A DNA stretch of 51,904 nucleotides, taken from contig JAKVAQ010000036.1 in assembly GCA_022447665.1 (NCBI GenBank), positions 1 to 51,904 of the forward strand, in the 5' to 3' direction. This document shows, piece after piece, positions 9,000-29,733 of the stretch. The stretch's first letter is position 1, and the number at the start of each line of letters is the position of its first letter. Both the position numbers and the translations under genes were made by a program. The DNA comes from Crocinitomicaceae bacterium. Its GTDB lineage: Bacteria > Bacteroidota > Bacteroidia > Flavobacteriales_D > Crocinitomicaceae. Below the pieces are notes generated by a model, which made no database searches, was not told the origin of the DNA, and saw only the letters and a program-made list of their open reading frames with translations.

Positions 9000-10727
9000 A
9001 TGAAAATTAGATTCGGCCTAATCAGTTTTTTCCTATTTGGAATTCTGAATTTAACTAATGCTCAAACTGAGCGTTGCGCAAAATTACAGGTTGCTTTAGA
9101 GGCACCATTAAATCAGTATAATTTAGATCTTTCTTCATGTAATATAAGCTCATTACCAGAAAATATGGGAGAGATGAAAAATCTCATGTTTTTAGACTTG
9201 AGCTCTAATGAAATTAAATTCCTACCAGAAAGTTTTGGTCAACTTGAGAAATTAAGTATGCTTAATTTACAAGGTAATTCTATTGCGGCGCTTCCAGCAT
9301 CGATTGCCAACATGATCGAATTAACCTCATTACAATTAGCTGAAAACAAGATCCCTAAGTTACCATCAGTAATAGGTAATCTTGTAAACTTAAATTATTT
9401 GGGAGTTTCAAGGAATGATCTAGCCTCTATTCCAAGTACTATAGGGAAATTGTCTGAATTGAACTCTTTAGACCTTGATTTTAATCAATTGGAAACGTTA
9501 CCCGATGAAATCGGAAACTTAAAAAAACTCACCTCCTTAAATGTGAGTAACAATAATATTGCTCAATTGCCAAAAGGAATGTTCAATCTAAAGAACATGG
9601 CTTATTTGAACCTTTCTGCGAATAAAATAAGTGAACTTTCAGAAGATATTAAGAACTTAAAGAATCTAAACGACCTTAATTTAGACCTTAATAACCTAAC
9701 CACTTTACCAAGTGAGATTGGAGCATTAGAGAATTTAGAATGGTTAGGATTAGAGGAGAATCAAATCTCCACATTACCATCAGAAATAGGAAATTTAGCC
9801 AATTTGAAATCTCTTAATGTATCCTACAACCAGTTAACTCAGTTACCTGTTTCAATTGGAAACCTTGCTAACTTAACACAATTGTACATTAACGACAATC
9901 AAATTTCTTCACTTCCAACTTCGATTGAAAAGTTAGGAATGTTAGAGGAGCTTAACATTTCGGGAAACATGATTATAACACTACCCAATGAGATTGGAAA
10001 TTTGGCAGCTCTGCACACATTGGAAATTGGTGAAAATCAAATATCTGAACTCCCGGAGTCTATTGGGAAATTAGTAAATCTTGTTAATGCGAACTTTAGC
10101 GGTAATTCATTATCTCAGCTACCAGATGGCATTGGAAGTTTAGTTAAACTACAAAGCCTCGACGCTTCACGAAATCAAATCAATTCTATCTCCGCAATGA
10201 TTAGCGGACTTACAAGTCTGAAATCTCTGAACTTACGAGAAAATCAAATTACAGCTTTTCCCATTGAACTTACTAAACTAGTAGTGTTAGAGGAATTAAT
10301 TCTTAGTGAAAATCAGATAAAAGAACTTCCAAAGAATATTGGTGACTTAGTTAACCTTTCTTCGTTGTCTCTTGATGGAAACTTTATTAAAGAGTTACCA
10401 GATGAAATTTCCAGCTTAACGAATCTTAAAAAACTATACTTATCAGGAAATTCATTGGAAGATTTACCGGATGAAATTGGAGAACTACATAACCTGAACT
10501 ATTTAAGTCTTGATGGAAATCAATTATCTTCTATTCCGAAAGAAATTGGAGATCTTTCAAGCTTAACTTATCTCAGTTTAGAAGGCAACTTGCTAAAGAA
10601 ATTACCGGAGGAAATAGGAAATCTTGAAAACCTTCAGTTTCTTTTCTTAGGAGGTAATTTATTTACTTACAAAGAACAGCAGAAAATTAAATCTTGGCTA
10701 CCTGAAGGGTGCAACGTTACATTTTAG
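9000..10727 (+). CDS. secreted leucine-rich repeat protein
   Basis: This 575-residue protein has a signal peptide (residues 1-22, ending TNAQ) and then almost only leucine-rich repeats. I count about 22 full units of exactly 23 residues with the pattern LxxLxLxxNxIxxLPxxIGNLxN, plus a first partial unit containing LDLSSCNISSLP and a C-terminal cap ending SWLPEGCNVTF. The 23-residue period and the LP.EIG.L phrase place it in the bacterial/plant Ras-group type of LRR. Such solenoids bind proteins or glycans. There is no T9SS sorting domain, lipobox or membrane anchor, so it is predicted to be periplasmic or released. It stands alone and meets the DUF2130 gene head-on with no base between the stop codons. 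The ligand is unknown. Confidence 0.92.
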   Translation: MKIRFGLISFFLFGILNLTNAQTERCAKLQVALEAPLNQYNLDLSSCNISSLPENMGEMKNLMFLDLSSNEIKFLPESFGQLEKLSMLNLQGNSIAALPASIANMIELTSLQLAENKIPKLPSVIGNLVNLNYLGVSRNDLASIPSTIGKLSELNSLDLDFNQLETLPDEIGNLKKLTSLNVSNNNIAQLPKGMFNLKNMAYLNLSANKISELSEDIKNLKNLNDLNLDLNNLTTLPSEIGALENLEWLGLEENQISTLPSEIGNLANLKSLNVSYNQLTQLPVSIGNLANLTQLYINDNQISSLPTSIEKLGMLEELNISGNMIITLPNEIGNLAALHTLEIGENQISELPESIGKLVNLVNANFSGNSLSQLPDGIGSLVKLQSLDASRNQINSISAMISGLTSLKSLNLRENQITAFPIELTKLVVLEELILSENQIKELPKNIGDLVNLSSLSLDGNFIKELPDEISSLTNLKKLYLSGNSLEDLPDEIGELHNLNYLSLDGNQLSSIPKEIGDLSSLTYLSLEGNLLKKLPEEIGNLENLQFLFLGGNLFTYKEQQKIKSWLPEGCNVTF

Positions 10728-12017
10728 TTAGAAGTCTTTAGGCTCAGGTAATCCATCTGCGTCGTCAAGTTCCAATGATGATATTTTCTTTACCGATGAA
10801 CCGGCTATTCCTTTGACAGAGCCGTACAAATCAATCGTGTTCATAATCACTTTTTCGATTTGTTTTTCCCGATCTTTCCAGATCTTTTGCATGGCTCTTT
10901 TTTCACGATCCAATTCGGATTTAAGCGAGGTAAAGCCATCTACGATTGCCTCAACTTGATGACGGAATTCATTCCCAGTGAGATAATCATAAAGCATATG
11001 CATTTTCTCACCTTTATTCTCATTTGAAGATTTAGTCGCGTTAATTTTTATTATTCCGTCACGTAATACGGCAGCCAGACTTTTAAACTCATCAAATGAA
11101 CATACCCATACTCCGTCTAACAGCGTAAATGATTTTTGATCTTTCGGTAAAGTTTGTGTGATCAAGACCGCAACATCAGCACCGGAAGAAAGCATATCTC
11201 CCTTTAATTTCGGAATCCAATCGTTAGCAAAATTTTGAGTTCTTTTTGACTCATAAATTATTTTTCCGCATATTTCTTGAGATGAATTTATGACCGTCTG
11301 AATGCAATCAGCTCCTCTAATTCCTTTTGATACCTCTTCAACGATATCAAATGGAAATAAACGAGACAATTCGGATTCTATAAGAAGTTCTTGCACCTCT
11401 CCTTGCAATTGCATCGAACCTTGTTCTTGCTTTCTTCGCATTTCCTCTGCAAGCTTCTTCTGATCCTCTATTTGCTTGAGGTACTCTTTCTCCTTTAATT
11501 CAAATTTAGCTGCTAATTTCTTCGCTGCTTCCTCTTCAACCTTCTTAGAGTTTTCCAGTACTCTCTTCTGTACTTCAATTTCCATTTTCTCTCTAGCCTC
11601 TTTCAAGTCCAGTTCTTTCTTCATGAATTGAACTTCCTTCTCCTGCAGCTTTTTATTCTCTTCTTTCTTTTTATCCAAATCTTCGCGCAAGGACTTCACC
11701 AGAACCTCCATGCTTTCTTTTGCATCTTTAGCAGCTTTAGTTTTAGCCTCAGCCTCAATTTTCTCTCGATCTGATTTTAGTCGCTCTTGATAAGCCGCAC
11801 GTGCTCTTTCTTGATCTTCCTCAAACTTTTTTTGTTTCGCTAAAAAAGACTCCTGCTCCTCTAAAAACTTCTTTTTTCTTGACTCTTGTTCCGCCAAAAA
11901 CGCTTGATTTTTCTTTTGATATTCTTCGCGCAATTTCTCCTCTACTCCATGAGCAATGGCATCTTCCGGACTAAAAGAGGTCCCACAACTAGGGCAAGTT
12001 ATTTTTACTTCACTCAT
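10728..12017 (-). CDS. DUF2130 coiled-coil protein with PD-(D/E)XK-like core
   Basis: This 429-residue cytosolic protein has a CPSC half zinc-knuckle at the N-terminus (residues 8-11), a long Glu/Lys-rich coiled coil (about residues 25-205), and a C-terminal DUF2130 region. In that region Asp237 (GIRGADCIQTV) and the pair Glu256/Lys258 (IIYESKRTQNF) have the D...ExK layout of PD-(D/E)XK nucleases, with Glu208 a candidate helix acid. A region with the sequence FANDWIPKLKGDM follows. The nuclease-like fold is inferred from these residues; activity is not shown. It is the last gene of the minus-strand operon that begins with the M42 peptidase. Its function is unknown; DNA or RNA processing on a coiled-coil scaffold is a possibility. 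Confidence 0.87.
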   Translation of the reverse strand: MSEVKITCPSCGTSFSPEDAIAHGVEEKLREEYQKKNQAFLAEQESRKKKFLEEQESFLAKQKKFEEDQERARAAYQERLKSDREKIEAEAKTKAAKDAKESMEVLVKSLREDLDKKKEENKKLQEKEVQFMKKELDLKEAREKMEIEVQKRVLENSKKVEEEAAKKLAAKFELKEKEYLKQIEDQKKLAEEMRRKQEQGSMQLQGEVQELLIESELSRLFPFDIVEEVSKGIRGADCIQTVINSSQEICGKIIYESKRTQNFANDWIPKLKGDMLSSGADVAVLITQTLPKDQKSFTLLDGVWVCSFDEFKSLAAVLRDGIIKINATKSSNENKGEKMHMLYDYLTGNEFRHQVEAIVDGFTSLKSELDREKRAMQKIWKDREKQIEKVIMNTIDLYGSVKGIAGSSVKKISSLELDDADGLPEPKDF

Positions 12018-12052: not shown

Positions 12053-12475
12053 CTATTTATGTTTCTTTCGAATGACAATTTTATTGCCATCTGCAATCAA
12101 ATCCCATTTATAAAAATCAAAAATTCTAGGGAGATAACGCAAATAAAGTTTGGTTCTTTGAGACTGCTCCGCTGCTTCTCCTGGCTTAAAAATTCCAGTA
12201 AACTCAAATACTTGCGTGTTTGGATGCTTTTCATGGTAGACGCGAAGAATTTCAATAATTGTTCGCATTACCTTAAACACATCTCCCTTATTCGTAAGCG
12301 CGTATTCGTCTTCTTCGTACTCATCATTTAGCACTCCAAAAGCAATAACAGCATGCAAGATGTTTTCTTTCTTTCGAGCAAACCTCACCTCATACTCCAC
12401 CTCATATTCCGTAACGAAATGGTATACTTGACCAGTAGGTATATTTGGTTTTACAATGTGATAATGGTCACTCAT
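12053..12475 (-). CDS. conserved hypothetical protein, 140 residues
   Basis: I do not recognise this family. The protein has no signal peptide or membrane helix and is predicted to be cytosolic. It starts with a His/Val-rich stretch (SDHYHIVKPN), continues with paired strands (TEYEVEYEVRFAR, ILHAVIAFGV), then a helix around FKVMRTIIEILRVYH. The end is basic (NKIVIRKKHK), after a segment TKLYLRYLPRIFDFYKW. The alternating pattern suggests a small alpha/beta fold. The start codon overlaps the stop of the WD40-caspase gene by 4 nt (ATGA), so the two are translationally coupled, and the DUF2130 gene follows after 35 nt. The coupling suggests a linked role, yet the caspase is exported and this protein is not. 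Confidence 0.75.
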   Translation of the reverse strand: MSDHYHIVKPNIPTGQVYHFVTEYEVEYEVRFARKKENILHAVIAFGVLNDEYEEDEYALTNKGDVFKVMRTIIEILRVYHEKHPNTQVFEFTGIFKPGEAAEQSQRTKLYLRYLPRIFDFYKWDLIADGNKIVIRKKHK

Positions 12476-15400
12476 TCTAATGCAAAAATAGGGTAATCTT
12501 GGCTAATATTCTCCTCTCTTGAGCTAGGTATTTGTTTTCCTCCCGAAAGTTGAGCCACTAAATTGTTTACATATGCACGTATTTCAGACACTTCCACCAT
12601 TCCATTTTTATTTAAATCAGTTTTCGGATTTCTCAAACCACTTAAAAAACAGTAAGTAAATAATCCATTTTTCCAATCATCACTCTCCATGGCATATTCT
12701 GCACCACCCGCACTAGCAATTACAGTCGCACCACTACCCTTTCTTGTATCTGAAAAAACATCTTGCAAATAACCAACACTATTCTCATTGCCAAATCCTT
12801 CCTTAGTGCGCACACCATTAACTCCTCTAAATTCAATGTTTCCGTCTTCTACCTCAGGATCCGGTCCCTGCTCAATCTCATCCTTATCCAATTCACCCGA
12901 ATGACAGGTATCCATGATTAGTAGCTTCTTGTAGGACTTAATCTTATTCAAAAGTTTATGAATATCATCATAGGCCAGGCCTTTGGCCTTAGGAGCATTA
13001 AAATCCATATCATACGTACCAAAATAATAATCAAAGTTCTCATCTAATACTCCATGTCCTGCAATGAATATCATTGCAATGTCCTCATGACTACAAGGCT
13101 CAAAAAAGGCGTCCAAACTCTTAAAGTTTTCCGTGGTAGCTTCCTCATTTAGCAATAATTTAACCTCAATTTTCTTGTAAAGTTCCGAAGAAGCCCTCAT
13201 GCTGGTTACAAAGTCGTTTACATCCTTCGTTGGGTACTTAAGATTAAAACTCTGGTCGGCATAATCACTAACTCCAATTGCTGCGATAAATAAATTATTC
13301 ATACCTCCTTCGTCCTCACGGATCATCTCAACAGTCTCAAAAAAGGACTCCGCTCCTTTATCGTTCAAGCATGAAAATTGAATTTTGTTCACTCCCGCAA
13401 TAAGAGGAACTTCAATCTCTTTTCTGTAGGATTTTACCTCTTCCGTTATCTGAAAACCTAATTCCCCATAAACCGGAACATCATTCACATATACATTTAT
13501 TTGCTTAAGGTTATAGTTATCATCCCAAGCCTTGATCCAAAATTTTTGTGTCTCCTCGCTCGTCACAAGCTCCGCATTTGTTTCGATCAGAATTTTAGGA
13601 ATATTAAAGTCCAATTTCAAATTACCTTCTTCCAAATTAAGTCTTTTGAGTCGCTTCTTAAAGAGATAATAATAAGCGTTAATTATTTTATCAGACGACT
13701 TCCCAATTCTCTTAGTAACTATGTCGGGTCTGTTCAAATAAATATCGAACTGCTCAAACGGAACCAACTTATCTCCGATTCTAAAGGCAATACCATTCAG
13801 TGCTTTTTTAGAAGCCATGTAATAATTATCGGGGGTGTAGATCATGAACTCCGAATTATTAATCCCGACAAAAGTGGCAACCACACCGCAATCTTCGTAG
13901 CCGCAGTATTTAACCGTACCATCTGTAGAAGCCGTAAAAGCCCTCGTAGATCCCTTATCAAAAATTACTTTGTTAACCCCTGCTTGATGATCAGCTACCT
14001 GACAAATCTTATTTCCTGAATTCAAATCCCAAAAAATCAATGAATTATCTGCCTCCCACACAGCGTTATTGCCCGCTACAGATGCTAGTACTGTTCCGTC
14101 ATGATTATAGTCAATAGAAGTAATTGTATTCGTATGTCCTTCCAAAACAAGCCTTGTGAACCAATCATTTGTGCTCCTAATGTATATAGTCTTATCCCAT
14201 GAAGCACTAGCCAATTCCTCTCCTGATGGACTAAACATAACACTGGAAATTACAATTGTCTGGTCAGTGAATTGTTTAATCTCTTCCTCTTTTTTATAAT
14301 CCCAGATTCTGACAGTTCCATCATGTGAACCAGAAGCAATCCAATTTTTTTCTGGATGAAAATCGAGTGCCATAATACCTCCAGTATGTCCATTTAAGTT
14401 AGCAACTCGCTCTTTGCTTTCTAGATCCCAAACTTTAACGATATTCATAAAACCACCTCCAGCTAAATATTTTCCATCGTCAGAAACTGCCAGCCGTTGA
14501 ATTAATTCTGAGTCTGTTTTTAACTCACCTACTTGAGAACCTGATTCTATATCAAATATTCCAAGATTTAACATGAAATTCATGGCTATAAGATGTTTCC
14601 CATCAGCTGTAAATTCACAAGGAAAAAAGCCTTTAATATTTTTAACCACCTTATTTTTTTCTAAGTCCCATATATCAATTGTGATCTTATCAGAAGCTAC
14701 AGCTAAAAACTTACCCTTTTGATCATAGGCCATGTTTTCGATGCTCTGAGTTTGTCCTCTAAGCGTTTTAAATACTTTGCTTGTTTGTGTATCATAAAAC
14801 CGAATAACGTCCATGTTAGCAATGATTACGGTTCCACCACGGGGATCTTTAGCCATACAACTAACCGAGTAGACCTCATTCGCAATCTCAGAAACAATCT
14901 TTTTTGAGTTATAGTTAAATACCTTAGTAGATCCATCATGCTGCGCTACATAAACCAACGGCTCCTTTTCATCAAACCTAAGGTCAATCATTTTTGACGC
15001 ATACTTCTTACCCGTGTAAACGAACTTACCTTTTTTTGTATCAAAGAGTCTTAGTTTATCGTCATTAAAACCAAAAGCAATTAAATCACCGTTCGGAGAA
15101 ATAGCACTTCTGGAAAAGGGGTAAACAAATTCTTCAAATAATTGATATTGCTCCTCAACAGCTCTCAACTTATTATCTATCTTATACAGTTCTCCTTTTA
15201 ACCCCAGAGCATAGGTCTTTCCATTTTCTTTGTCTGTTATAGTAAGCGTAGAATAAACGTCTGGAACTACTGCCACTTCACCTGTCGCTATATTTAAAAA
15301 TGATACTTGAGAACTTTCGCCAGTATAAATTATTTGTTTATCGTCTTGCGTAAAAGCTAATCCCCGAGTTCCGCCAGTTGCAGGAATTTGATGTAATATA

Positions 15401-15714
15401 TCTCCGGAAATAACATCCCAAACATACAGCTCATCACTACTTGATTTGCCTGTAAGAACTTTACCATCAGAGCTAAAATCGAGCTCTCCTACTCGTCCGT
15501 TGGTACCTGATATGGTTCTAAACTCTTTGGTAGTAGCAACGTGCCAAATCTTAATTATCTTATTGTTACTGGCACTCGCTAAAAATTGAGCGTTCTCTGA
15601 CATTGACATGGCATGAACCATATCGTTGTGACCAGTTGTAAGCACAACAGTTGGATTTTCTTGAGCGAATACCCAAAAATTTAGAAAGGTTAACAGAAGA
15701 AAGAACTTATGCAT
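12472..15714 (-). CDS. exported WD40-repeat caspase family protein
   Basis: This 1080-residue protein has a signal peptide (residues 1-18, ending VFAQ). WD40 repeats fill roughly residues 25-640, probably two beta-propellers; the clearest units read HTGGIMALDFHPEKNWIASG and DGTVRIWDYKKE. A linker with immunoglobulin-like strands (residues about 700-800) follows, then a caspase-type peptidase domain (about 805-1075). The catalytic dyad is visible: His887 in IAGHGVL and Cys937 in MDTCHSGE, 50 residues apart as expected for caspase folds. Enzymes of this group cleave after basic or acidic residues; the specificity here is not known. The signal peptide puts it in the periplasm or outside. It starts 5 nt after the M42 peptidase gene and overlaps the 140-aa gene, so it lies in the middle of an operon. 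Confidence 0.9.
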   Translation of the reverse strand: MHKFFLLLTFLNFWVFAQENPTVVLTTGHNDMVHAMSMSENAQFLASASNNKIIKIWHVATTKEFRTISGTNGRVGELDFSSDGKVLTGKSSSDELYVWDVISGDILHQIPATGGTRGLAFTQDDKQIIYTGESSQVSFLNIATGEVAVVPDVYSTLTITDKENGKTYALGLKGELYKIDNKLRAVEEQYQLFEEFVYPFSRSAISPNGDLIAFGFNDDKLRLFDTKKGKFVYTGKKYASKMIDLRFDEKEPLVYVAQHDGSTKVFNYNSKKIVSEIANEVYSVSCMAKDPRGGTVIIANMDVIRFYDTQTSKVFKTLRGQTQSIENMAYDQKGKFLAVASDKITIDIWDLEKNKVVKNIKGFFPCEFTADGKHLIAMNFMLNLGIFDIESGSQVGELKTDSELIQRLAVSDDGKYLAGGGFMNIVKVWDLESKERVANLNGHTGGIMALDFHPEKNWIASGSHDGTVRIWDYKKEEEIKQFTDQTIVISSVMFSPSGEELASASWDKTIYIRSTNDWFTRLVLEGHTNTITSIDYNHDGTVLASVAGNNAVWEADNSLIFWDLNSGNKICQVADHQAGVNKVIFDKGSTRAFTASTDGTVKYCGYEDCGVVATFVGINNSEFMIYTPDNYYMASKKALNGIAFRIGDKLVPFEQFDIYLNRPDIVTKRIGKSSDKIINAYYYLFKKRLKRLNLEEGNLKLDFNIPKILIETNAELVTSEETQKFWIKAWDDNYNLKQINVYVNDVPVYGELGFQITEEVKSYRKEIEVPLIAGVNKIQFSCLNDKGAESFFETVEMIREDEGGMNNLFIAAIGVSDYADQSFNLKYPTKDVNDFVTSMRASSELYKKIEVKLLLNEEATTENFKSLDAFFEPCSHEDIAMIFIAGHGVLDENFDYYFGTYDMDFNAPKAKGLAYDDIHKLLNKIKSYKKLLIMDTCHSGELDKDEIEQGPDPEVEDGNIEFRGVNGVRTKEGFGNENSVGYLQDVFSDTRKGSGATVIASAGGAEYAMESDDWKNGLFTYCFLSGLRNPKTDLNKNGMVEVSEIRAYVNNLVAQLSGGKQIPSSREENISQDYPIFALE

Positions 15715-15719
15715 ATATG

Positions 15720-16808
15720 CTAAGAAAAATATCGAAAATCGTGCCCTTTTTTAATCTTTAGCAACGTTTCATACATCAATTTTATGCCATTCTCAACATC
15801 ATCCTTATGGGCCATTTCTACAGTTGTGTGCATATATCTTAACGGAGTTGAAATTAACACACTTGCAACACCCATATTACTGTAAGCAAAGGCATCCGTA
15901 TCTGTACCGGTAGCACGAGAAACTGCCGCACGTTGAAAAGGTATTTTCTTCTTAGTAGCTGTATCAATAACTAGGTCAAGCAAATTATTCTGAACAGCTG
16001 GACCATAAGAAAGCGTAGGACCTTTTCCACTTTTTATATCGCCTTGCACTATTTTATTAATCATAGGTGTACACGTATCATGACATACATCAGTTACAAT
16101 AGCAACGTCCGGCTGAATACGTTCAGCAATCATTTGAGCACCTCTTAGTCCAACTTCTTCTTGAACAGAATTCGTTATATAAAGTCCAAATGGCAATTTC
16201 TTTTTATTTAAATGTAGTAGACGTGCAACTTCGGCGATCATAAATCCCCCAATTCTATTATCTAAAGCTCTTCCTACGTATCGATTTTGCGCTTCCACAA
16301 ATTCATCGGGATAAGTTACAACACAACCTACATGAACTCCTAATGCTTCTACTTCGTCCTTGCTATCACATCCGCAATCTAGAAATATGTTGTCATTCTT
16401 CGGTGGAAGTTCTTTCGCACCTCTTCTGGTATGAATTGCAGGCCAGCCGAAAAAGGCATCAACCAGTCCCTTTTTTGTATGAATGTGTACTCGTTTTGAA
16501 GGAGCAATTTGATGATCCGAGCCACCATTTCTCCTTAAATAAATGAACCCATCATCAGTGATGTAGTGAACAAACCACGAAATTTCGTCAGCGTGAGCCT
16601 CAATAACAACCTTATAATCCGCTTCGGGATTTATAATTCCAACAACACTTCCGTAGGTATCTACCCAATAATCATCTATATAAGGTTTAATGTATTCCAA
16701 CCATAATTTTTGTCCCTCCTGTTCAAAACCGGTAGGTGAATAATTGTTGTGGTATTTAGACAAGAAATCTTTTGACTTTTTATTAAGAATAGATTTGGCT
16801 TTAGCCAT
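15720..16808 (-). CDS. M42 family metallo-aminopeptidase
   Basis: This 362-residue cytosolic enzyme belongs to the M42 glutamyl aminopeptidase/endoglucanase-M family, which form large dodecameric shells with two metals per subunit and trim peptides from the N-terminus. Metal and catalytic residues are visible: EAHADEIS (first His and the acid), GRALDNRIGG (bridging Asp), SVQEEVGLRGA (catalytic Glu pair), TDVCHDT (Asp), and a C-terminal His in TTVEMAHKDD. The protein has no signal peptide. It is the first gene of a four-gene operon with the exported caspase. A role in finishing peptide breakdown would fit, but the two peptidases are predicted to sit in different compartments. Confidence 0.93.
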   Translation of the reverse strand: MAKAKSILNKKSKDFLSKYHNNYSPTGFEQEGQKLWLEYIKPYIDDYWVDTYGSVVGIINPEADYKVVIEAHADEISWFVHYITDDGFIYLRRNGGSDHQIAPSKRVHIHTKKGLVDAFFGWPAIHTRRGAKELPPKNDNIFLDCGCDSKDEVEALGVHVGCVVTYPDEFVEAQNRYVGRALDNRIGGFMIAEVARLLHLNKKKLPFGLYITNSVQEEVGLRGAQMIAERIQPDVAIVTDVCHDTCTPMINKIVQGDIKSGKGPTLSYGPAVQNNLLDLVIDTATKKKIPFQRAAVSRATGTDTDAFAYSNMGVASVLISTPLRYMHTTVEMAHKDDVENGIKLMYETLLKIKKGHDFRYFS

Positions 16809-16882: not shown

Positions 16883-17980
16883 ATGATAAAAATATTGCCT
16901 CTCCTATGTTTCTCCTTTATCGCCCTACAAGTCAATGCTCAAGGAGACTCAACATTAACTGGTAAAGGAGTAGATCAAGATATTCTGGATTCTCTCGGAA
17001 TGAAGAATCCTGAAGTAATTAAAAAATATAATGATGGTATTACACAGTACACTTCAAAGAATTATTTAGGTGCCGTTCAAGCATTTACAGAATGTGTCCT
17101 TATGGATACAGTATATATTGAAGCCTACTACCAGCGCGCTCAGGCTTTCGTTATGATGGAAAAGCCTTCTGAAGCAATTAAAGACTTTTCTACTACATTA
17201 AGATTAGATCCTACAAACGCAGACGCAGCTTATCAAATAGGTAGTCTCCACATGAAAAGTGGTGACTATGAAAATGCTATTAAAGCCTTTGAAAAGGCCG
17301 AAAATATTGATGTCGCCAATGAAAAGTATCCTTACAAAAGAGGAATTGCTTTGTTCGAACTTCAAAATTATGAAGGCGCCATTGATGCATATAACGAAGC
17401 AATCAAAAGAAATCCAAAATTCGGGAACGCCTACAATGACAGAGGTTCATGCAAACTAATGCAAGAAGATCTAGATGGTGCAATTGCAGATTATAAGTTG
17501 GCCGTTCAATACGATAATAAGTTGAGTTTTGCCTACAACAACTTAGGAAGTGCATACCGAAAGCAAGAAAACTATGATGCTGCCATTAAATATTACAATG
17601 AAGCCATTAAACTGAAGATAGATTATTATGTCGCTTTTAATAATAGAGGTTCGGCAAAACTGATGAAGGGTGATATTGAAGGAGCAATTTCAGATTTTAA
17701 CAAAGCCATAGAGATAAAACCAGACTATGCTTTTGCTTATAACAACTTAGCTGGTGCTTTCATCAAAAAGGAAGACTATAAGTCAGCAGTGGAAGCTTGT
17801 GACAAAGCGATTGAGTTAAGACCAGAGTACATGGAGGCTTACCTGAATAGAGGAATAGCAAAAGAAATGTTAAAAGACGTTGACGGTGCATGCGCAGATT
17901 GGGAAGATGCATTCATACTAGGTTCAGAAAACGCGGCCAGTTACGTAGATGGTCCTGCATGTCAATCATTGAAAAAATAA
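16883..17980 (+). CDS. exported tetratricopeptide repeat protein (copy 1)
   Basis: This 365-residue protein has a signal peptide (ending QVNAQ, about residue 20) and about nine tetratricopeptide repeats from residue 45 to 350. The repeats carry the usual AY..RG and A....A motifs, for instance NAYNDRGSCKLMQEDLDGAI. The C-terminus has the sequence CADWEDAFILGSENAASY and ends PACQSLKK, nearly the same as the copy at 20151. TPR solenoids mediate protein contacts; the likely partner is the PorE-like protein encoded 3 nt downstream, which itself starts with a short TPR region. It is predicted to act in the periplasm. A consensus promoter lies directly upstream. Confidence 0.9.
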   Translation: MIKILPLLCFSFIALQVNAQGDSTLTGKGVDQDILDSLGMKNPEVIKKYNDGITQYTSKNYLGAVQAFTECVLMDTVYIEAYYQRAQAFVMMEKPSEAIKDFSTTLRLDPTNADAAYQIGSLHMKSGDYENAIKAFEKAENIDVANEKYPYKRGIALFELQNYEGAIDAYNEAIKRNPKFGNAYNDRGSCKLMQEDLDGAIADYKLAVQYDNKLSFAYNNLGSAYRKQENYDAAIKYYNEAIKLKIDYYVAFNNRGSAKLMKGDIEGAISDFNKAIEIKPDYAFAYNNLAGAFIKKEDYKSAVEACDKAIELRPEYMEAYLNRGIAKEMLKDVDGACADWEDAFILGSENAASYVDGPACQSLKK

Positions 17981-17983
17981 GAA

Positions 17984-20065
17984 ATGAAGAAACTTTTTAT
18001 ACTTACAACATTCTGCATCCTTTCATTTAATTTCATTGGTTTTGGTCAGGATGTACCGTTTGAGAAGGATCTCTTTAAAGGTCGTAAAGATGAATTCAAA
18101 GCTGCAGTAAAACACATTAAGATTGGTGATGATATGAGACTTGGCTATCCTGCAGACTACAGAGGGGCTGTCAATGAATATATGATGGCCTATGAATTTA
18201 ATCCTAAAAGCGCTGATTTAAACTACAAAATAGGGTTGGCTTATTTTCATTTTGATAAACATTCTATGGGGCAATACTTTGAAGCTGCATATGAACTAAA
18301 ACCTACTGTGGCCCCAGACATTCTTTACTTTGTTGGTTTAAGTCATCATTTGGATGCACAATGGCAAGAAGCAATAGATTACTACAATAAATTCATTTCT
18401 TCTGCAACGGACCCCGAACTTCAAGAAATGAAAACCGTGGCTATCAAAAAGGTTATGGAATGTAAAAGTGGAATTGCTTTAGCCGGAAACCAAGGTAGAG
18501 TTTGGATTGATAATCTTGGACCAAACATTAATACCGAATACCCTGACTACGCTCCAGTTGTATCAACAGACGAGGCGATAATGGTATTTACTGCTCGTAA
18601 ACCAGATAGCGATATTAGCTCTCCAGTGGGAGGATATTTTGAAGACCTCTTTATTACAAAACGAGTTGGTGGCACATGGATGAGAGCTAAGCCTATTGGT
18701 GAGCCAATTAATGTAAAAGGTCAACATGACGCTACTATTGGAATTTCGCCAGATGGTCATACCCTATTTGTTTACAACGATAAAAAAGGGGGCGGAGATA
18801 TCTATGCTTCTACTAACTTAGGTGGAGAATGGTCAAAACCTCAAAATCTTGGCAAGAACATTAATACCGATTATCATGAGCCAGATGCATCCCTTTCTTT
18901 TGATGGTAAAAGACTTTATTTTACATCAGACAAGCCAGGTGGAAAAGGCGGTCATGATATTTACTTCTCTGATTGGGATGACGATAAAGAAGAATGGGGA
19001 GAAGCGTTTCCTATCCCTGGCCCTATTAACACACAATATGAAGAGCGTTCAGTATTTATCCACCCGGATGGCGAAACGATGTATTTCTCGTCAAACGGAC
19101 ATAACACCATGGGAGGGTATGATTTATTCTTTTCAAAATTAGTTAATGGTGTATGGCAAGAGCCCGTGAACTTAGGCCCGCCTCTTAACACACCATATGA
19201 TGATGTTCAATTAGTGGTAGCCGGTAATGGTCGTTTTGGTTATTATTCTTCTTACAGAGAAGGAGGATTCGGAGAGAAAGACATTTATCTTATCACTTTT
19301 CTTGGACCTGAAAAACCACCCTTACTTTCAAATGAAGACAATCTTCTGGCTTCTGTTGCTCAACCTATTAAAGAGACATTCAAAGAGCCAGAGTTGGTAA
19401 ACGAAGGAAGTAATATGGCGATTCTAACTGGCGTAATTACTGACGCCAAAACAAAGCTGCCGCTCAAAGCAGATGTTGTATTGATAGATAACGAGAAAAA
19501 TGTTGTCATTGCTGAATTTCAATCAGAACCTAAAACTGGTAAATATCTGGTGTCTTTACCAGCGGGTAGTAATTATGGAATCGCAGTGAAACACGATGGA
19601 TATCTTTTCCATTCAGAAAACTTTGTATTAGAAAGATCTAGCGGATTTAAACAGTATGAGAAAGATGTTGAATTGAAGAAGATTGAAGTCGGGGAATCAA
19701 TTATTTTAAGGAATATTTTCTTTGATTTGGACAAATATACGCTGCGTCCTGAGTCCGTGAATGAACTGGAAAGACTTATAAAGTTAATGAATGACAATCC
19801 TACCCTTAGAATTGAGATCTCTGGGCACACTGACACAAGGGGCAGTTCAAGTCACAATCAAGAGCTCTCTGCGAACAGAGCTAAAGCGGTAGTAGACTAC
19901 TTAGTGGATCACGGTATTGATGCTTCTAGACTCGAATCAGCAGGATATGGAGAATCAAAGCCGCTTATATCAGATGCTCAAATTACAGATATGCCTACCA
20001 AATCTCAAAAAGAAGAGGCACATCAAAGCAATAGAAGAACAGAATTTAAAATCTTGAGTAAGTAG
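17984..20065 (+). CDS. PorE-like TPR-PD40-CRD-OmpA protein (copy 1)
   Basis: This 693-residue protein has a signal peptide (ending GFGQ) and four modules in order. These are a TPR-like helical part (residues 30-160), a PD40 beta-propeller of repeats such as HDATIGISPDGHTLF and RLYFTSDKPGG (about 175-445), a carboxypeptidase-regulatory-like domain (about 480-555), and an OmpA C-terminal domain (about 570-693). The OmpA part contains SGHTDTRG and LSANRAKAVVDYL, with the Asp and Arg that bind the diaminopimelate of peptidoglycan. This order is that of PorE, the T9SS part that holds the machine to the cell wall. The role is inferred from architecture; related proteins without a secretion role also exist. 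It is translated with the TPR gene 3 nt upstream. Confidence 0.9.
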   Translation: MKKLFILTTFCILSFNFIGFGQDVPFEKDLFKGRKDEFKAAVKHIKIGDDMRLGYPADYRGAVNEYMMAYEFNPKSADLNYKIGLAYFHFDKHSMGQYFEAAYELKPTVAPDILYFVGLSHHLDAQWQEAIDYYNKFISSATDPELQEMKTVAIKKVMECKSGIALAGNQGRVWIDNLGPNINTEYPDYAPVVSTDEAIMVFTARKPDSDISSPVGGYFEDLFITKRVGGTWMRAKPIGEPINVKGQHDATIGISPDGHTLFVYNDKKGGGDIYASTNLGGEWSKPQNLGKNINTDYHEPDASLSFDGKRLYFTSDKPGGKGGHDIYFSDWDDDKEEWGEAFPIPGPINTQYEERSVFIHPDGETMYFSSNGHNTMGGYDLFFSKLVNGVWQEPVNLGPPLNTPYDDVQLVVAGNGRFGYYSSYREGGFGEKDIYLITFLGPEKPPLLSNEDNLLASVAQPIKETFKEPELVNEGSNMAILTGVITDAKTKLPLKADVVLIDNEKNVVIAEFQSEPKTGKYLVSLPAGSNYGIAVKHDGYLFHSENFVLERSSGFKQYEKDVELKKIEVGESIILRNIFFDLDKYTLRPESVNELERLIKLMNDNPTLRIEISGHTDTRGSSSHNQELSANRAKAVVDYLVDHGIDASRLESAGYGESKPLISDAQITDMPTKSQKEEAHQSNRRTEFKILSK

Positions 20066-20129
20066 TGATTCTGGATTTTCTTTTTTAAGACAAACTCTGT
20101 TTTTTTATCGATAAATTCATCGAATTAAC

Positions 20130-20137
20130 TAAATTCG
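20130..20137 (+). promoter_or_regulatory. possible -7 promoter element of the second TPR/PorE-like pair
   Basis: TAAATTCG is identical to the -7 box of the first pair and ends 13 nt before the second TPR gene. The position expected for -33 reads ATCG, so that box is weak or absent. Confidence 0.4.
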
Positions 20138-20150
20138 CGATAGGTATACT

Positions 20151-21191
20151 ATGAGTAAGTTATATTTAGTATTAATAGCGGCCCTCTTTTGTGTGAATAC
20201 TTTCGCGCAAAATAAATATTCTTTGGCTGCCAAAAAATCCTTTAAAGAAGGGAATAAGGCGTATACAGAGAACAGAAATGAAGATGCAATAAAATTCTTC
20301 ACTGAGGCCCTAGAAAAAGAGAGCGGATTTGCAGAAGCTTATCTAAATAGATCAATTGTTTATTTGAAAATGGTAGATTATAAAAATGCCTTTTCAGATG
20401 CGAAGAAAGCCTACGCCATTGCTCCACTTCAGAGTGCAATTCATAACCAACTAGGTAAGTGTTATTATAATGATGGACACTTAGATAGCGCCAAGTATTT
20501 CCTAGAAAAAGGTACTAATGTATCCTCCCCTAGTGATGAGGACCTATACTACTTAGCCAATGTACATTCTGACTTAGGAGACTATAATAGCGCTATTGAA
20601 TCTTATTCGTCATTGCTAAAAAATCATCCAGAAAATTCTGCTATTCTCAATCAAAGAGGAATATCGTATTTTAAGATTGGAGAATATTCAAAAGCAGAAG
20701 AAGATTTCTTGCACGCTTTAGAGCACGAACCTGAAAACATCTCAATTTATTCGAACCTTGCAAATGCCGCTATTGAAGCAAATGATACAACTAAAGCTAT
20801 ACAGTACATTGATCGTGGAATTAATAAAGCTACGGGACATGCTAAGATGGAGTTTCTTATTCTTAAAGGAAATTATTTCTTCAAGCTTGAGCGATACAGT
20901 GAAGCAAGTGAATTTTATAATGAGGCTTACGCTATTGAAAACGAGAATCCAATAGTTTTGACCAACCAAGCTTCAATTATGATTCAGACAGGAAATTATG
21001 AAGGTGCTATATCGAAATGTACAGCGGCTATAGAGCATAACCCTGAATTCATGCAAGCTTATTTTAATAGAGGAATTGCTTACGAAATGTTACGTGATAC
21101 GCGTCAAGCCTGTATGGACTGGGAAGAAGCATTCATTCTAGGTTCAACACAAGCGGAAGAATACTTAAATAGCCCAGCCTGCTCTGAATAA
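20151..21191 (+). CDS. exported tetratricopeptide repeat protein (copy 2)
   Basis: This 346-residue protein is the paralogue of the TPR protein at 16883. It has a signal peptide (ending NTFAQ, about residue 20) and about eight tetratricopeptide repeats, for example AYLNRSIVYLKMVDYKNAF. The C-terminus reads ACMDWEEAFILGSTQAEEYL and ends in PACSE; this Cys-DWE-AFILGS-Cys motif is the best conserved part of the two copies. The middle repeats have diverged, which suggests different partners or an old duplication. It is followed after 2 nt by the second PorE-like gene, the same arrangement as in the first pair. It is predicted to be periplasmic. Confidence 0.9.
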   Translation: MSKLYLVLIAALFCVNTFAQNKYSLAAKKSFKEGNKAYTENRNEDAIKFFTEALEKESGFAEAYLNRSIVYLKMVDYKNAFSDAKKAYAIAPLQSAIHNQLGKCYYNDGHLDSAKYFLEKGTNVSSPSDEDLYYLANVHSDLGDYNSAIESYSSLLKNHPENSAILNQRGISYFKIGEYSKAEEDFLHALEHEPENISIYSNLANAAIEANDTTKAIQYIDRGINKATGHAKMEFLILKGNYFFKLERYSEASEFYNEAYAIENENPIVLTNQASIMIQTGNYEGAISKCTAAIEHNPEFMQAYFNRGIAYEMLRDTRQACMDWEEAFILGSTQAEEYLNSPACSE

Positions 21192-21193
21192 AC

Positions 21194-23323
21194 ATGAAGA
21201 ACTTATTACTCTTTATATTAACTATGACCCTCGGGCTTGCATCAATTGCTCAGCAAGAGGACGTTCCTTTCGACAAGCGATTATTTGCAGACAATAAAGA
21301 AGGGTTCGATAACGCCGTTAAAGAAATTAAAAAAGGAGATTTTCATTTCTTTGATGGAACCGAAACTGACTTGAATATTGCATTAGGACATTACTTAACA
21401 GCTCAGGAATTCAATCCATACAGTTCCGTGTTGAATTATAAAATTGGGATTTGCTATCTGTACAGTAACAAAAAATTTAAAAGCTTGGATTATTTGAAGT
21501 TTGCTCATGATGTAAATCCTGAAGTAGACCCTAATATCAACTTCTATCTAGCGCAAGCATATCACTTAAAAATGGATTTTGAAAAAGCCATTGAGCATTA
21601 CAACATCCAGAAAGATCTTATTGGTACGAAAGATGAATTTCAAAGAATCTATATCAATAAAAAGATTAGAGAATGTCGCACTGGTATGGAAATGGTCAAG
21701 AAACCTGTGAGAGTTTGGATTGAAAACTTAGGGGATAGCGTAAACACTGAATATTCAGAATATTCTCCAGTTATTTCGGCTGATAACAGAGTTTTATTTT
21801 ATACAGGTAGACGACCTGACTCAGAAGGTGGAGAGCAGGATAAGTCGGGTATTTATTTAGAAGACATTTACTCTAGCACGCGTGGATTCGGAGAAGATTG
21901 GGGAGAAAGTGTAAACCTCGGAACACCCGTAAACTCTAAAAACCATGATGCTACTGTTGGTCTTGCTCCTGATGGAAAAAGTCTTTTAATTTACAAAAGT
22001 ATTTCTGGTAAAAATGGGGACATCTTTATTACTCGCCAAGGTGATGACGGTATATGGGATGAGCCATCTTCGATTGGAGAAAACATTAATACTAAATTTC
22101 ATGAATCAAGTGCAACATTAACATTTGACGAAAAGGTTTTATTTTTTGATTCCGATAAACCTGGCGGAGAAGGTCAGCACGATATTTATGTGAGTTACTG
22201 GGATGAAGAAACGGGAGAATGGGGAAAACCTGAAAACTTAGGGCCTACGATCAATACAAAGTACGAAGAGAAGGGTGTCTTTATTTCTGATGACGGGAAG
22301 ACGCTATATTTCTCCTCTGATGGACATAGCAACATGGGAGGCTTAGATATTTTCAAATCTACTTTTGATGATGAAACAGGAAAATGGTCTGAACCGGAAA
22401 ACCTTGGTTATCCAATTAATACTCCAGATGATGACGTGTATTTCGTAGTAACAGGAAACGAAAGGTATGCTTACTATTCATCTTACAGAGAGGATGGTTT
22501 AGGAGAAAAAGATATTTACAGAATTACCTTCTTGGGTGATGCTAAACTTCCACTAATTGCCGATGCAGATTTAGTAGGGAGTGATTTTGATACAGAATTA
22601 AACCAACCATTAACTGAATTGTTTACTACTCCAAACACAGGAACTGGAACAAGTGATGAAGTAGCAGAAAAACTGGTCACAATTAAAGGAAAAGTAATGG
22701 ACGGATCCTCCAACAAACCTTTAGGAAACGCCCAGATAGACATTGTAGATTCTAAGACAAACAAAATAATCCAGACGTTAACATCAAATTCTGACGGTAC
22801 TTATTCGATCAATCTTGAAGCTGGAAAGAGCTATGCCTTTACCGTATCTAAGAAAGACTTCACCATTGACTCTAAAACAGTGGCTACCACGAAAAAAGAT
22901 GGTGGTAAAACAAAAACTATAGATTTCTCGATTGTCACACCAGCACCTGATGTAGAGTTCACACTCAATAATATTTATTTTGATTTCGATAAAGCGGATC
23001 TAAGAAACAAATCAGTTCTTGAACTTGACAAATTAGTACAAATCATGAAAGAACATCCTACTATGATCATAGAGTTGTCTGGACATACAGATAGACGAGG
23101 TAGCGATGAGTACAACATGGCTTTATCTAAGCGCAGAGCTGAAATTGCTAAAGATTATCTCGTATCCAAAGGGATTGATGCCTCTCGAATCAAAACTAAA
23201 GGGTATGGTGAAACTCGTCCTGCCATAGATGGAGCAACCATCTCTGCTATGAAAACAAGAAAAGAGAAAGAGGCTGCGCACCAAGCAAATCGTCGCACGA
23301 TGATTAAAATCATCAGCCAATAG
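21194..23323 (+). CDS. PorE-like TPR-PD40-CRD-OmpA protein (copy 2)
   Basis: This 709-residue paralogue of the protein at 17984 has the same plan: signal peptide (ending SIAQ), TPR-like region with EFNPYSSVLNYKIG, PD40 propeller with HDATVGLAPDGKSLL and FDSDKPGGEGQHD, a carboxypeptidase-regulatory-like domain near residues 500-575, and an OmpA domain at the end. The peptidoglycan-binding residues are kept in SGHTDRRGSDEYN and LSKRRAEIAKDYL. A Thr/Gly-rich linker (TTPNTGTGTSDE) separates the propeller from the CRD and is longer than in copy 1. It is predicted to sit at the outer membrane and peptidoglycan. A T9SS anchoring role is inferred from its architecture. Confidence 0.9.
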   Translation: MKNLLLFILTMTLGLASIAQQEDVPFDKRLFADNKEGFDNAVKEIKKGDFHFFDGTETDLNIALGHYLTAQEFNPYSSVLNYKIGICYLYSNKKFKSLDYLKFAHDVNPEVDPNINFYLAQAYHLKMDFEKAIEHYNIQKDLIGTKDEFQRIYINKKIRECRTGMEMVKKPVRVWIENLGDSVNTEYSEYSPVISADNRVLFYTGRRPDSEGGEQDKSGIYLEDIYSSTRGFGEDWGESVNLGTPVNSKNHDATVGLAPDGKSLLIYKSISGKNGDIFITRQGDDGIWDEPSSIGENINTKFHESSATLTFDEKVLFFDSDKPGGEGQHDIYVSYWDEETGEWGKPENLGPTINTKYEEKGVFISDDGKTLYFSSDGHSNMGGLDIFKSTFDDETGKWSEPENLGYPINTPDDDVYFVVTGNERYAYYSSYREDGLGEKDIYRITFLGDAKLPLIADADLVGSDFDTELNQPLTELFTTPNTGTGTSDEVAEKLVTIKGKVMDGSSNKPLGNAQIDIVDSKTNKIIQTLTSNSDGTYSINLEAGKSYAFTVSKKDFTIDSKTVATTKKDGGKTKTIDFSIVTPAPDVEFTLNNIYFDFDKADLRNKSVLELDKLVQIMKEHPTMIIELSGHTDRRGSDEYNMALSKRRAEIAKDYLVSKGIDASRIKTKGYGETRPAIDGATISAMKTRKEKEAAHQANRRTMIKIISQ

Positions 23324-23349
23324 TCCTTTCTTAGCTAATTACTTTGATT

Positions 23350-24438
23350 ATGAAGACAATTTTCTTCGCTGCATTTTTAACTGTAGCAAGCATTGCCTGT
23401 GGGCAGAATACCTACACCTTGGAAGACTTTTTTGTTTACGATGCTGAACTAGAACAAAAGGTTGATGATTACTTTGATCAAATGAGCGATACGGCTCGAG
23501 TAGGACAAATGATAATTCCTGCAGCTGGAGGCCATGGAAAACCAACCGAACATATTAATGGACTAATAAAGAGAAACTTTATTGGTGGCATCCTTCTTCT
23601 AAACGGAACTAAAGAAGGCTTTACCGAAATGGTAAAAGACTTTAGCTCTCTGAATAGCGCTTCGGGAGGACTACCATTGCTATACTCGGCAGATGCCGAG
23701 CCAAGTCTAATCGGATATAAAATTAAAGGTTGTTCTCCTGTCAAAAAAGCAAACCTTATGATTAGCCGTGAGGAAGTATCTACTTTTGCAAATAGCATTT
23801 GTAATGATCTAATCGATATTGGAATTAATTATAATTATGCTCCAGTTGTCGATATGTCTCCAAATGAAGTTGTATCCTGGAGAAGCTTTGGAGACAATCC
23901 TGACACGGCTCAAATCTGGTCACAAATCTTCATAGAAGAAACTCAAAAAAGAGGGATTGTAGCCACTGCGAAGCACTTTCCCGGTCATGGCTATGTTGTT
24001 GGTGACACCCATAAAAAACTCGTTTACATAGATGGAGAAATGAAAGAGGTGGACAATTATACCCCATTAATAAAAGCTGGAGTACTATCTATTATGGTAG
24101 CACATATTGCCATAAAAAATAACGATGAGTATAACACAAACGATATGCCATCAACCGTTTCTAGAAATATTGTAACAGGATTATTAAAAAAGAAAATGGG
24201 CTTTAAAGGATTAATCGTTACTGATGCCTTAAACATGGGCGGAGTTGTCAATATCCCTGATTGTGAACTCAAAGCAGCTCAAGCCGGTTGTGATCTATTA
24301 TTAATGCCGGTGGATGAAGAAAAGGCAGTAAAAGACATCGTAACGGCGATTGAAGAGGATGAAGATTTTAGAAAGCAAGTTTATGCCTCAACTCGTAAAA
24401 TTATTCGACTAAAAATTTGTTTGGGAATACTCCAATAA
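23350..24438 (+). CDS. exported GH3 family glycoside hydrolase, NagZ-like
   Basis: This 362-residue protein holds only the N-terminal barrel of glycoside hydrolase family 3, as in beta-N-acetylhexosaminidases of the NagZ type. The active-site loop AKHFPGHGYVVGDTHKKL contains the Asp-His pair that acts as acid/base, and VTDALNMGG contains the nucleophile Asp. Unlike NagZ of E. coli it has a signal peptide (residues 1-18, SIACGQ), so it is exported; the Cys at position 17 sits in an imperfect lipobox, so lipidation is possible but uncertain. The ATG at 23350 is preferred over a TTG at 23344. It follows the PorE-like gene by 26 nt and may be co-transcribed. Peptidoglycan fragments are a likely substrate by family, not proven here. 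Confidence 0.9.
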   Translation: MKTIFFAAFLTVASIACGQNTYTLEDFFVYDAELEQKVDDYFDQMSDTARVGQMIIPAAGGHGKPTEHINGLIKRNFIGGILLLNGTKEGFTEMVKDFSSLNSASGGLPLLYSADAEPSLIGYKIKGCSPVKKANLMISREEVSTFANSICNDLIDIGINYNYAPVVDMSPNEVVSWRSFGDNPDTAQIWSQIFIEETQKRGIVATAKHFPGHGYVVGDTHKKLVYIDGEMKEVDNYTPLIKAGVLSIMVAHIAIKNNDEYNTNDMPSTVSRNIVTGLLKKKMGFKGLIVTDALNMGGVVNIPDCELKAAQAGCDLLLMPVDEEKAVKDIVTAIEEDEDFRKQVYASTRKIIRLKICLGILQ

Positions 24439-27254: not shown

Positions 27255-27722
27255 TTATTCTTCTTCTTTCTTAGCTTCAGTTGCTTTTTTAGCAGCACCA
27301 CCTTTACCACCTCTACGTGATCTTCTAGCTGGCTTCTTAGCATCAGATTTGTTAGAATAGATTTCATTAAAGTCAACTAACTCAATCATACACATTTCAG
27401 CGTTATCACCAAGACGATTACCAGTTTTAATAATTCTAGTGTATCCACCTGGACGATCAGCTACTTTAGGAGCGATCTCTCTGAATAACTCACTAACTGC
27501 GTACTTGCTTTGTAAGTATCCAAAAACAACTCTTCTTGAATGCGTAGAATCTGTTTTCGATTTAGTAATTAATGGCTCAACATAACCTCTTAAAGCTTTA
27601 GCCTTAGCTACAGTCGTGTTGATTCTTTTATGCTCAATTAACGAACATGCCATGTTTGAAAGCATTGCTTTTCTATGCGCTGACTTTCTTCCTAAATGGT
27701 TGAATTTCTTTCCGTGTCTCAT
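27255..27722 (-). CDS. rplQ: 50S ribosomal protein L17
   Basis: L17 is a large-subunit protein near the exit tunnel. The N-terminal 115 residues match the family: [20 protein letters not shown], the segment [20 protein letters not shown], and [19 protein letters not shown]. The 155-residue product has an extra C-terminal tail rich in Lys, Arg, Ala and Glu ([18 protein letters not shown]), a common feature in Bacteroidota that is expected to be disordered and RNA-bound. It is the last gene of the ribosomal operon, 213 nt after rpoA, the longest gap in that operon, and it is followed by a strong terminator. Confidence 0.97.
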
Positions 27723-27892
27723 TTCTTTCTTTTTTAACTTTCAGGCCTTCTTTAGTACCTGATCGCTGTTTAACTTAAACTACACCTTAATTTTTTGTTA
27801 CTCCCTCACAAGGATTTTGGGAGAGTCGTCACGAATCTTTTTCTTTGCGCCCAGTTCGTGTGCTAAGCGACAAGAAATTATTCAAAAGAGAA

Positions 27893-27915
27893 GACATGGA
27901 CAAACTGCCCATGTC
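27893..27915 (-). promoter_or_regulatory. hairpin in the rpoA-rplQ spacer
   Basis: A perfect 7-bp stem GACATGG/CCATGTC (27893-27899 with 27909-27915) with a 9-nt loop lies 20 nt after the rpoA stop. The minus-strand tail is pyrimidine-rich but not a clean T-run, so it may attenuate or be processed rather than terminate. The rest of the 213-nt spacer has a weaker stem (27801-27805 with 27819-27823) and no gene. Confidence 0.4.
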
Positions 27916-27935
27916 AACTTTATAAAATACTATTC

Positions 27936-28928
27936 CTAGTCTTTGTCTAATTTGTACTTAGAAACGTTCATTCCGAATGAAAGACCTTTTGACTCTACTA
28001 AGTCTTCAAGCTCTGTTAATGACTTCTTACCGAAGTTTCTAAATTTCAATAAATCGTTTTTGTTGTATGAAACTAAGTCACCTAAAGTTTCAACGTCAGC
28101 AGCCTTAAGACAGTTAAGTGCCCTTACTGAAAGATCTAAGTCAACTAACTTAGACTTCAATAATTGACGCATGTGAAGTGAAGTTTCATCAAACTCTTCC
28201 GTCTCAGACTTAATTTCAGTATCAAGAGTGATACGCTCATCCGAGAACAACATGAAGTGGTGAATCAAAATCTTAGCAGCTTCTTGTAAAGCATCCTTTG
28301 GAGTAATTGATCCATCAGTTTGAATATCAAAAACTAATTTTTCGTAATCTGTTTTTTGCTCTACACGGTAGTTCTCAACGTTGTAGTTAACATTTTTGAT
28401 AGGAGTGTAGATTGAATCAACAGCAATAGTCCCTACAGGAGCACTTGAAGATTTGTTTTCTTCAGCAGGAATATATCCACGTCCCTTAGAAATTTCAAGT
28501 TCCATGTTAATTTTCACTGATGACTCCATACGAGCGATAACTAAGTCTGGATTTAACACTTGGAATGCAGTTGTAAACTTCCCAATATCTCCAGCAGTTA
28601 AAGTCTCTTGTCCTGAAACAGAAACGATTACTTTTTCAGAATCCGTTCCTTCAATTTGTTGCTTGAAACGTACCTGCTTCAAGTTTAGGATGATCTCAGT
28701 TACATCATCAACCACTCCTTTGATCGTAGAAAACTCGTGATCTACACCTTCAATTTTAACCGAAGCGATTGCGAACCCTTCCAATGATGAAAGTAAAATT
28801 CTACGTAATGCATTACCAACTGTAATACCATAACCCGGTTCAAGTGGACGGAATTCGAATTGACCTCTAGCGTCATCCGATTCAATCATAATTACCTTGT
28901 CCGGTTTTTGAAAATCTAATATTGCCAT
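27936..28928 (-). CDS. rpoA: DNA-directed RNA polymerase subunit alpha
   Basis: The alpha subunit dimer is the assembly platform of RNA polymerase. The 330-residue product has the N-terminal assembly domain ([20 protein letters not shown], then [15 protein letters not shown]) and, after a flexible linker near residues 235-255, the C-terminal domain. That domain reads [20 protein letters not shown] and [16 protein letters not shown], with the helix-hairpin-helix surface that contacts DNA and regulators. The length is normal. It sits between rpsD (130 nt upstream) and rplQ (213 nt downstream), and both spacers hold stem-loops. It is the usual alpha-operon position. Confidence 0.98.
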
Positions 28929-28963
28929 TGTTTTATCTTCTTTTAATTGTCTCGAGGTTGCGC

Positions 28964-28997
28964 GGTTTGCTTACTTGAAGATTACGGTAAGCAGACC
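28964..28997 (-). promoter_or_regulatory. strong hairpin in the rpsD-rpoA spacer
   Basis: An 11-bp stem with one G-U pair joins 28964-28974 (GGTTTGCTTAC) and 28987-28997 (GTAAGCAGACC), with a 12-nt loop. No T-run follows on the minus strand, so it is not a simple terminator. It lies 36 nt upstream of the rpoA start and could be a structured leader, a processing site or a protein-binding site. A TATTTTTG box (29033-29026) stands just upstream but lacks a -33 partner. Confidence 0.45.
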
Positions 28998-29058
28998 CTT
29001 TAGCCCCGATTCAATGATTAATACGCAAAAATATTGCGATTAGGTTTATATTAACTTA

Positions 29059-29658: not shown

Positions 29659-29682
29659 TTCTATTTGTTTTTTTTAGATCTG

Positions 29683-29707: not shown

Positions 29708-29733
29708 ATGGTCTTATCTGTTTATATTAATTA

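Follow-up and report, generated by a model that had tools for sequence, protein, structure and literature searches.

The Bacteroidota already provide one exported protease with a caspase fold, Fragipain, which belongs to family C11 and is not known to carry propellers. This cysteine protease of Bacteroides fragilis cuts at Arg-Ala and activates secreted proteins (PMC8406203). A 2012 survey of prokaryotic caspases reported WD40 as their commonest partner (73 of 671), N-terminal helices that are possibly signal peptides, 28 caspase copies in one Bacteroidetes genome and OmpA in 14 caspase operons, and it proposed extracellular roles (PMC3501461). Orthocaspases of the MaOC1 type undergo self-processing in E. 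coli (PMC5756287). In the plant type II metacaspase 4, residues 221-223 of the p20-p10 linker form a strand before Lys225, which plugs a pocket of Asp137, Ser84, Asp352 and Ser350 and is then cut (PMC7206013). Here we describe a gene on a stretch of 51,904 nucleotides (nt) from a Crocinitomicaceae bacterium (assembly GCA_022447665.1, contig JAKVAQ010000036.1, positions 1 to 51,904; the whole stretch is referred to as the window). It encodes a 1080-residue protein in which WD40 propellers precede a caspase domain (Table 1), and we regard this protein as a promising candidate for a self-activating protease that is exported.

Table 1. Features of the caspase gene and its neighbourhood, in window coordinates (aa, amino acids; ORF, open reading frame)
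Feature	Position	Strand	Basis
Predicted exported WD40-Ig-caspase (orthocaspase), 1080 aa	12472..15714	-	ORF and Pfam
Predicted Sec signal peptide, residues 1-17, cut after V-F-A	15664..15714	-	home-made rule
Two seven-bladed WD40 propellers, residues 22-618	13861..15651	-	56 strands in AlphaFold model; Foldseek
Connector with conserved TPDNYY...NRPD and Ig-like beta-sandwich, residues 619-805	13300..13860	-	alignments and model
Caspase (Peptidase_C14) domain, residues 806-1080	12475..13299	-	Pfam; VIA-align Z 22.7 to metacaspase 4
Catalytic His887	13054..13056	-	115/116 aligned family members
Catalytic Cys937	12904..12906	-	116/116 aligned family members
p20-p10 linker, residues 941-991, low model confidence	12742..12894	-	alignments and models
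Arg963, proposed self-inhibition and self-cleavage residue	12826..12828	-	63/63 long-linker, 0/8 short-linker members
M42 aminopeptidase, cytosolic core gene, neighbour	15720..16808	-	Pfam (E 9.5e-72), genome counts, signal rule
DUF6934 protein, no signal peptide by the rule, neighbour	12053..12475	-	Pfam (E 1.1e-7)
DUF2130 gene, next downstream	10728..12017	-	also adjoins DUF6934 in G020, G025, G004, G008
Divergent TPR gene and TPR-PD40-OmpA (PorE-like) gene	16883..20065	+	beside M42 also in G048, G045

Pfam assigns WD40 families to the N-terminal part of the protein and Peptidase_C14 to residues 812-1067 (E 2.4e-13, 50.8 bits against a cut-off of 21.4). In an AlphaFold model of the whole protein, built from nine sequences with a mean predicted local distance difference test score (pLDDT) of 82, the 56 strands of residues 22-618 form 14 four-stranded blades. 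The Foldseek matches listed for this model were filled by propellers and include the tandem propellers 1nr0 and 8i7o_P1, so the double WD40 propeller suspected in the original prediction is supported by the model. A second model, of residues 613-1080, was built from 102 sequences and reached a pLDDT of 88. From the modelled strands we read the beta-sandwich preceding the caspase domain as Ig-like. The whole layout, together with the catalytic dyad, is common to eight full-length orthologues at 39-56% identity, which is far beyond chance.

The dyad named in the original prediction is present as His887 in a GHG motif (residues 886-888) and Cys937 in DTCHSG (935-940). Among 116 aligned family members Asp935 occurs in all and Asp831 in 115. 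Family loci had been fetched with the patterns K[LV]LIMDTC and W[KQ][NG]GLFTY, the first of which contains Cys937 and contributed part of the 116; the 71 members found by whole-protein search were counted separately, and in these Cys937 is kept in 71, His887 in 70, Asp935 in 71, Asp831 in 71 and Glu1010 in 70. The dyad is thus retained in the relatives. In another alignment (A2) the members were chosen by a recognisable D-x-C (101 of 107, plus the window protein), and its invariant Cys is no evidence. A regular expression had suggested loss of the dyad in a few members, and alignment showed it intact except in L169, where the His is lost.

The C-terminal model was compared with solved structures by VIA-align. 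Metacaspase 4 (6w8r, 6w8s) was the top match listed (Z 22.7, root mean square deviation 3.2, 226 aligned), tied with MALT1 (22.2) and the orthocaspase GSU0716 (3bij; 21.9), and the matches listed, at Z 20.1-22.7, were nearly all caspases, metacaspases and MALT1; Foldseek listed MALT1 first. The nearest solved relatives in a profile search of PDB sequences were metacaspase 4 (E 1.6e-5) and GSU0716 (E 4.1e-5), with no animal caspase at E up to 1, and phmmer, run with just the caspase domain, yielded no real PDB relative. C14 was among the best 25 of 49 Pfam families, and a C11 profile was not among these 25. Asp831 aligns with the Asp of the metacaspase ND motif, and Asp935 stands two residues before the catalytic Cys, as does Asp137 in metacaspase 4. 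Together with Glu1010, these positions predict that the metacaspase-like domain would cleave after Arg or Lys. The protein resembles the prokaryotic orthocaspases MaOC1 and GSU0716 in caspase fold, His-Cys dyad and predicted basic specificity, and differs from them in its predicted export and in the 14-blade platform and Ig-like part in front of the protease.

The linker between p20 and p10 spans about 51 residues and is poorly conserved, the median modal frequency of its columns being 0.46. The pair Phe962-Arg963 is nevertheless found in all 63 long-linker members (35 or more of the 51 linker columns filled) of the 71-member subset and in none of the other eight. Overall, Arg963 is present in 104 of 115 dyad-intact members; apart from the short-linker clade, L107 (two), L067 and one copy from L089 lack this residue or do not align there. 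Read by eye from the alignments, the usual form of the site is GD-V/I-x-F-R-A/S-V-G. In the C-terminal model no other stretch has confidence as low as the linker, and a short strand is placed there at residues 960-962, just before Arg963. In the profile search the GSU0716 linker IRYRAM aligns with ikfrav of the family, so that Y-R stands there against F-R here. A long linker with a self-cleaved basic residue is a trait of type II metacaspases, and the linker of the window protein likewise has a basic residue as candidate plug; the window protein differs in being bacterial and apparently exported, in its shorter linker and in having Ala885 where metacaspase 4 has Ser84. On the strength of the Phe-Arg conservation, the modelled strand and the precedent of Lys225, we propose that Arg963 may be a site of self-inhibition and self-cleavage.

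The N-terminus of the protein, MHKFFLLLTFLNFWVFA followed after the putative cut by QEN, combines a hydrophobic core with a V-F-A cleavage site. Signal peptides were called by a home-made rule requiring a hydrophobic core near the start and small residues at -3 and -1, with an inner Met allowed as start; it replaced an earlier, laxer rule that had called 14 of 17 DUF6934 rows positive. Of the family members with their own start and at least 600 aa, 106 of 109 pass, including the window protein, and 96 of 109 do so at the first start. Of the three that fail, one is a broken gene, another a short ORF, and the third has an uncertain start. The export foreseen in the original prediction is supported by this retained segment, as judged by a lax rule. 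No sorting domain of the type IX secretion system was among the best 25 of 49 Pfam families and the caspase domain forms the end of the protein, so we take the periplasm as the default location; the surface or the medium is also possible.

Taken together, we hold with middling confidence that the protein is exported as a zymogen orthocaspase, activates itself and trims exported proteins. Sec would export the protein with removal of residues 1-17. The two propellers and the Ig-like domain, to judge from their fold, would serve as a platform on which a partner or substrate docks, and cleavage by the C-terminal caspase domain would follow Arg or Lys. Until activation, the p20-p10 linker would cover the active site, its Arg963 occupying the pocket specific for basic residues; docking, or a change such as Ca2+, would then cause the enzyme to cut at Arg963 and open, as conservation and metacaspase 4 suggest. 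Once active, the enzyme might trim exported proteins, either those of its own cell or those of neighbouring cells.

Several points weigh against this reading. The signal rule was also passed by 577 of 1097 other ORFs of the same loci; caspase loci are rich in exported proteins, and the rule is also lax. Ala885 replaces Ser84 of metacaspase 4 in 112 of 116 members, so the pocket is not identical. The divergent short-linker clade (eight members in the subset) lacks Arg963, and control there must differ; the role of Arg963 in the other members could instead be structural. The family was collected by similarity to the C-terminal part of the window protein, linker included, which favours the linker motif somewhat. 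A separate result weighs against a uniform family, for the N-terminal parts differ between members: of six mostly long members scanned, four (L054, L125, L130, L089) had no WD40 match at E 1e-6 and matched C14 only.

The protein was matched in 43 of 59 genomes, its own included, in many of them only in the propellers. A whole-length orthologue occurs in 10 of the 59; the copy in G030 is broken in the propeller half, with the caspase half still open (L046/contig 7). These genomes and 60 named loci yielded 119 different family ORFs, some of them fragments. Most of the named hosts belong to the Crocinitomicaceae or to other Flavobacteriales; some are Bacteroidales, and one record is from the Cytophagales. 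A tree of 114 C-terminal regions, made by a quick method and rooted at the midpoint, contains many paralogue clades that cross genera and places the window gene within a clade of 19 rows (support 96 in the Shimodaira-Hasegawa-like approximate likelihood ratio test, SH-aLRT). Up to 10 family members were found in one genome (G025). The window genome has seven C14 places, of which one is broken up into short ORFs. On its contig 34 (L052:7848-8455) a further caspase copy is divided between two short ORFs and is probably a decaying gene. In Lutibacter agarilyticus (L089:1-15189) four caspase-family ORFs lie in tandem, the first cut by the end of the locus.

C14 matches were obtained in at least 22 of 80 Bacteroidota genomes, the window's own included, a lower bound given that this search missed the window's own gene. 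We fetched 20 stretches of the 37 C14 places outside that genome and, setting the rest aside, read 19 ORFs with a D-x-C-like motif, which are from other families. Ten of the 19 pass the signal rule, and exported caspases, by this prediction, do not look rare in Bacteroidota. None of the 19 has the F-R motif; one copy from L199 has GNITYR in its linker and L196 has KYRFM.

An alternative to envelope or secreted-protein processing is that the family serves cell death or the killing of neighbours, the exported caspases acting on the envelope of self or kin. In 2012 a part in death at the surface or in fratricide was suggested (PMC3501461), and the 10 copies in G025 would fit this. No toxin or immunity gene was recognised, however, among 18 neighbour families recurring in at least four loci, only some of which were looked up in Pfam, three of these without a match; and the anti-phage models of PADLOC gave only HEAT-ARM over the propeller (residues 399-510), a repeat match. 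We consider such a role unlikely. SpoIIE-type neighbours in 10 caspase loci were followed as a lead and set aside, the chance expectation being about equal when SpoIIE-type genes are put at about 1% of genes (our estimate) with eight neighbours per locus. Pfam confirmed SpoIIE for two of these neighbours, and 14 caspase-bearing genomes (e.g. G000, G004, G025) have 6-57 SpoIIE-type phosphatase genes each, often as long open frames. SprB-like giant proteins lie near 12 caspase loci in mixed positions, with SprB shown for one.

The original prediction also treated the caspase gene, an M42 aminopeptidase gene and an unknown gene downstream as a set of co-expressed parts. The spacing it gave is exact, with a 5-nt gap between M42 and the caspase start and a 4-nt overlap of caspase and downstream ORF (12472-12475), and by Pfam the unknown gene is a DUF6934 gene. 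The order M42-caspase-DUF6934 is not unique to this genome; it recurs in seven genomes (window, G020, G025, G011, G030 with its broken caspase, L055 and L111), and in the six with an intact caspase, whose outer flanks change, the genes are spaced 5-12 nt and -4 to +3 nt apart. The caspases of these triads form a single clade (SH-aLRT 100), within which co-transcription is likely. DUF6934 occurs in 11 of 14 genomes with the caspase family and in 3 of 45 others (Fisher p 4e-7, for genomes that are not independent), and the tendency also shows among genomes of at least 3.2 Mb, with 11 of 14 against 2 of 21 (p 5e-5); here G054, which has only a contig-end fragment and divergent matches, was left out of the caspase set, and a weak DUF6934 match in G010 was left out of the DUF6934 set. 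One might suppose a single working system, in which the exported caspase makes peptides that M42 with DUF6934 digests or regulates.

Other observations argue against such a system. M42, DUF2130 and DUF6934 pass the signal rule in 0 of 12, 0 of 6 and 1 of 17 rows, counts that include duplicate rows from one genome fetched twice, so M42 and DUF6934 would be in another compartment than the caspase. An M42 orthologue of at least 69% identity is present in 42 of 59 genomes (own included; three partial), 35 of which lack this caspase, and the caspase occurs without that M42 in three of its 10 genomes (G003, G024, G044). M42 and DUF6934 are adjacent without a caspase in G004 and G008, with gaps of 123 and 157 nt; no caspase remnant was found at these empty sites, the gap scores against three caspase genes lying inside the range that shuffled sequence gives. 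In an M42 tree G004 and G008 fall among the triad genomes, without resolution. In the stretches fetched, some of which are cut short by contig ends, neither neighbour accompanies the 12 other rows of the 19-row clade. Carriers of either gene also have larger genomes. Thus the tight order claimed originally holds in several genera, whereas the idea of one three-gene system is not supported and seems to us quite improbable. Empty sites, compartment and the core-gene status of M42 speak against M42 and DUF6934 as dedicated partners; they are probably co-transcribed neighbours at a core locus and not working parts.

The wider surroundings vary. In G048 and G045 these TPR and OmpA genes are again found facing M42, with no caspase or DUF6934 there, and the gene beside DUF6934 in G024, G045 and G048 is, judging by its N-terminus, presumably htpG. 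In the window, positions 16883-24438 hold two successive pairs of TPR and OmpA-PD40 genes (PorE/CHU_0125-like, below curated cut-offs) followed by a GH3 gene, an arrangement wholly or partly kept next to M42 in the triad genomes. An exported-looking protein consisting almost wholly of leucine-rich repeats is encoded at 9000-10727, and related genes adjoin the triad in L046/L065, L055 and L111 and DUF2130 in G008. From 27255 to 44515 the ORFs are mostly small and follow one another on the minus strand.

Two further readings fare worse. The N-terminal segment might not be a signal peptide, leaving the protein in the cytosol or inner membrane; the signal call does rest on a lax home-made rule, but 106 of 109 members retain a signal-like segment despite wide variation elsewhere in the proteins, and we regard this reading as very improbable. 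That the protein is a surface or periplasmic scaffold which has lost proteolysis, as the propellers, its largest part, might suggest, is hard to credit with the dyad intact in 115 of 116 members.

The original suggestion of a new type of control or maturation system is too strong. The 2012 survey reported both signal-like helices and WD40 partners, and Fragipain, likewise a Bacteroidota cysteine protease, is a working precedent for activation of secreted proteins by an Arg-Ala cut. The WD40 caspases of that survey share the partner domain, with export suspected for part of them, and the portions of it consulted do not describe the linker motif or the spread of the present family (PMC3501461). 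Literature searches aimed at the family listed no paper naming it, and as far as the searched literature tells, what is new is the size and conservation of the exported family and its Phe-Arg linker site.

More tentatively, the exported, self-inhibited caspases of Crocinitomicaceae and their relatives, up to ten per cell, could act as a network, each with its own N-terminal platform for its own ligand or partner, each released by itself at the same Phe-Arg site, and maturing different envelope or secreted proteins, in effect an extracellular zymogen cascade; we consider this a doubtful extension. Most discussion of bacterial caspase relatives treats them as death proteases inside the cell. An exported family that is large, conserved and apparently equipped with its own activation site would offer a testable role in the envelope or among secreted proteins, and the Phe-Arg site, present in 63 of 63 long-linker members within an otherwise variable linker, would reduce the question of activation to a single mutant.

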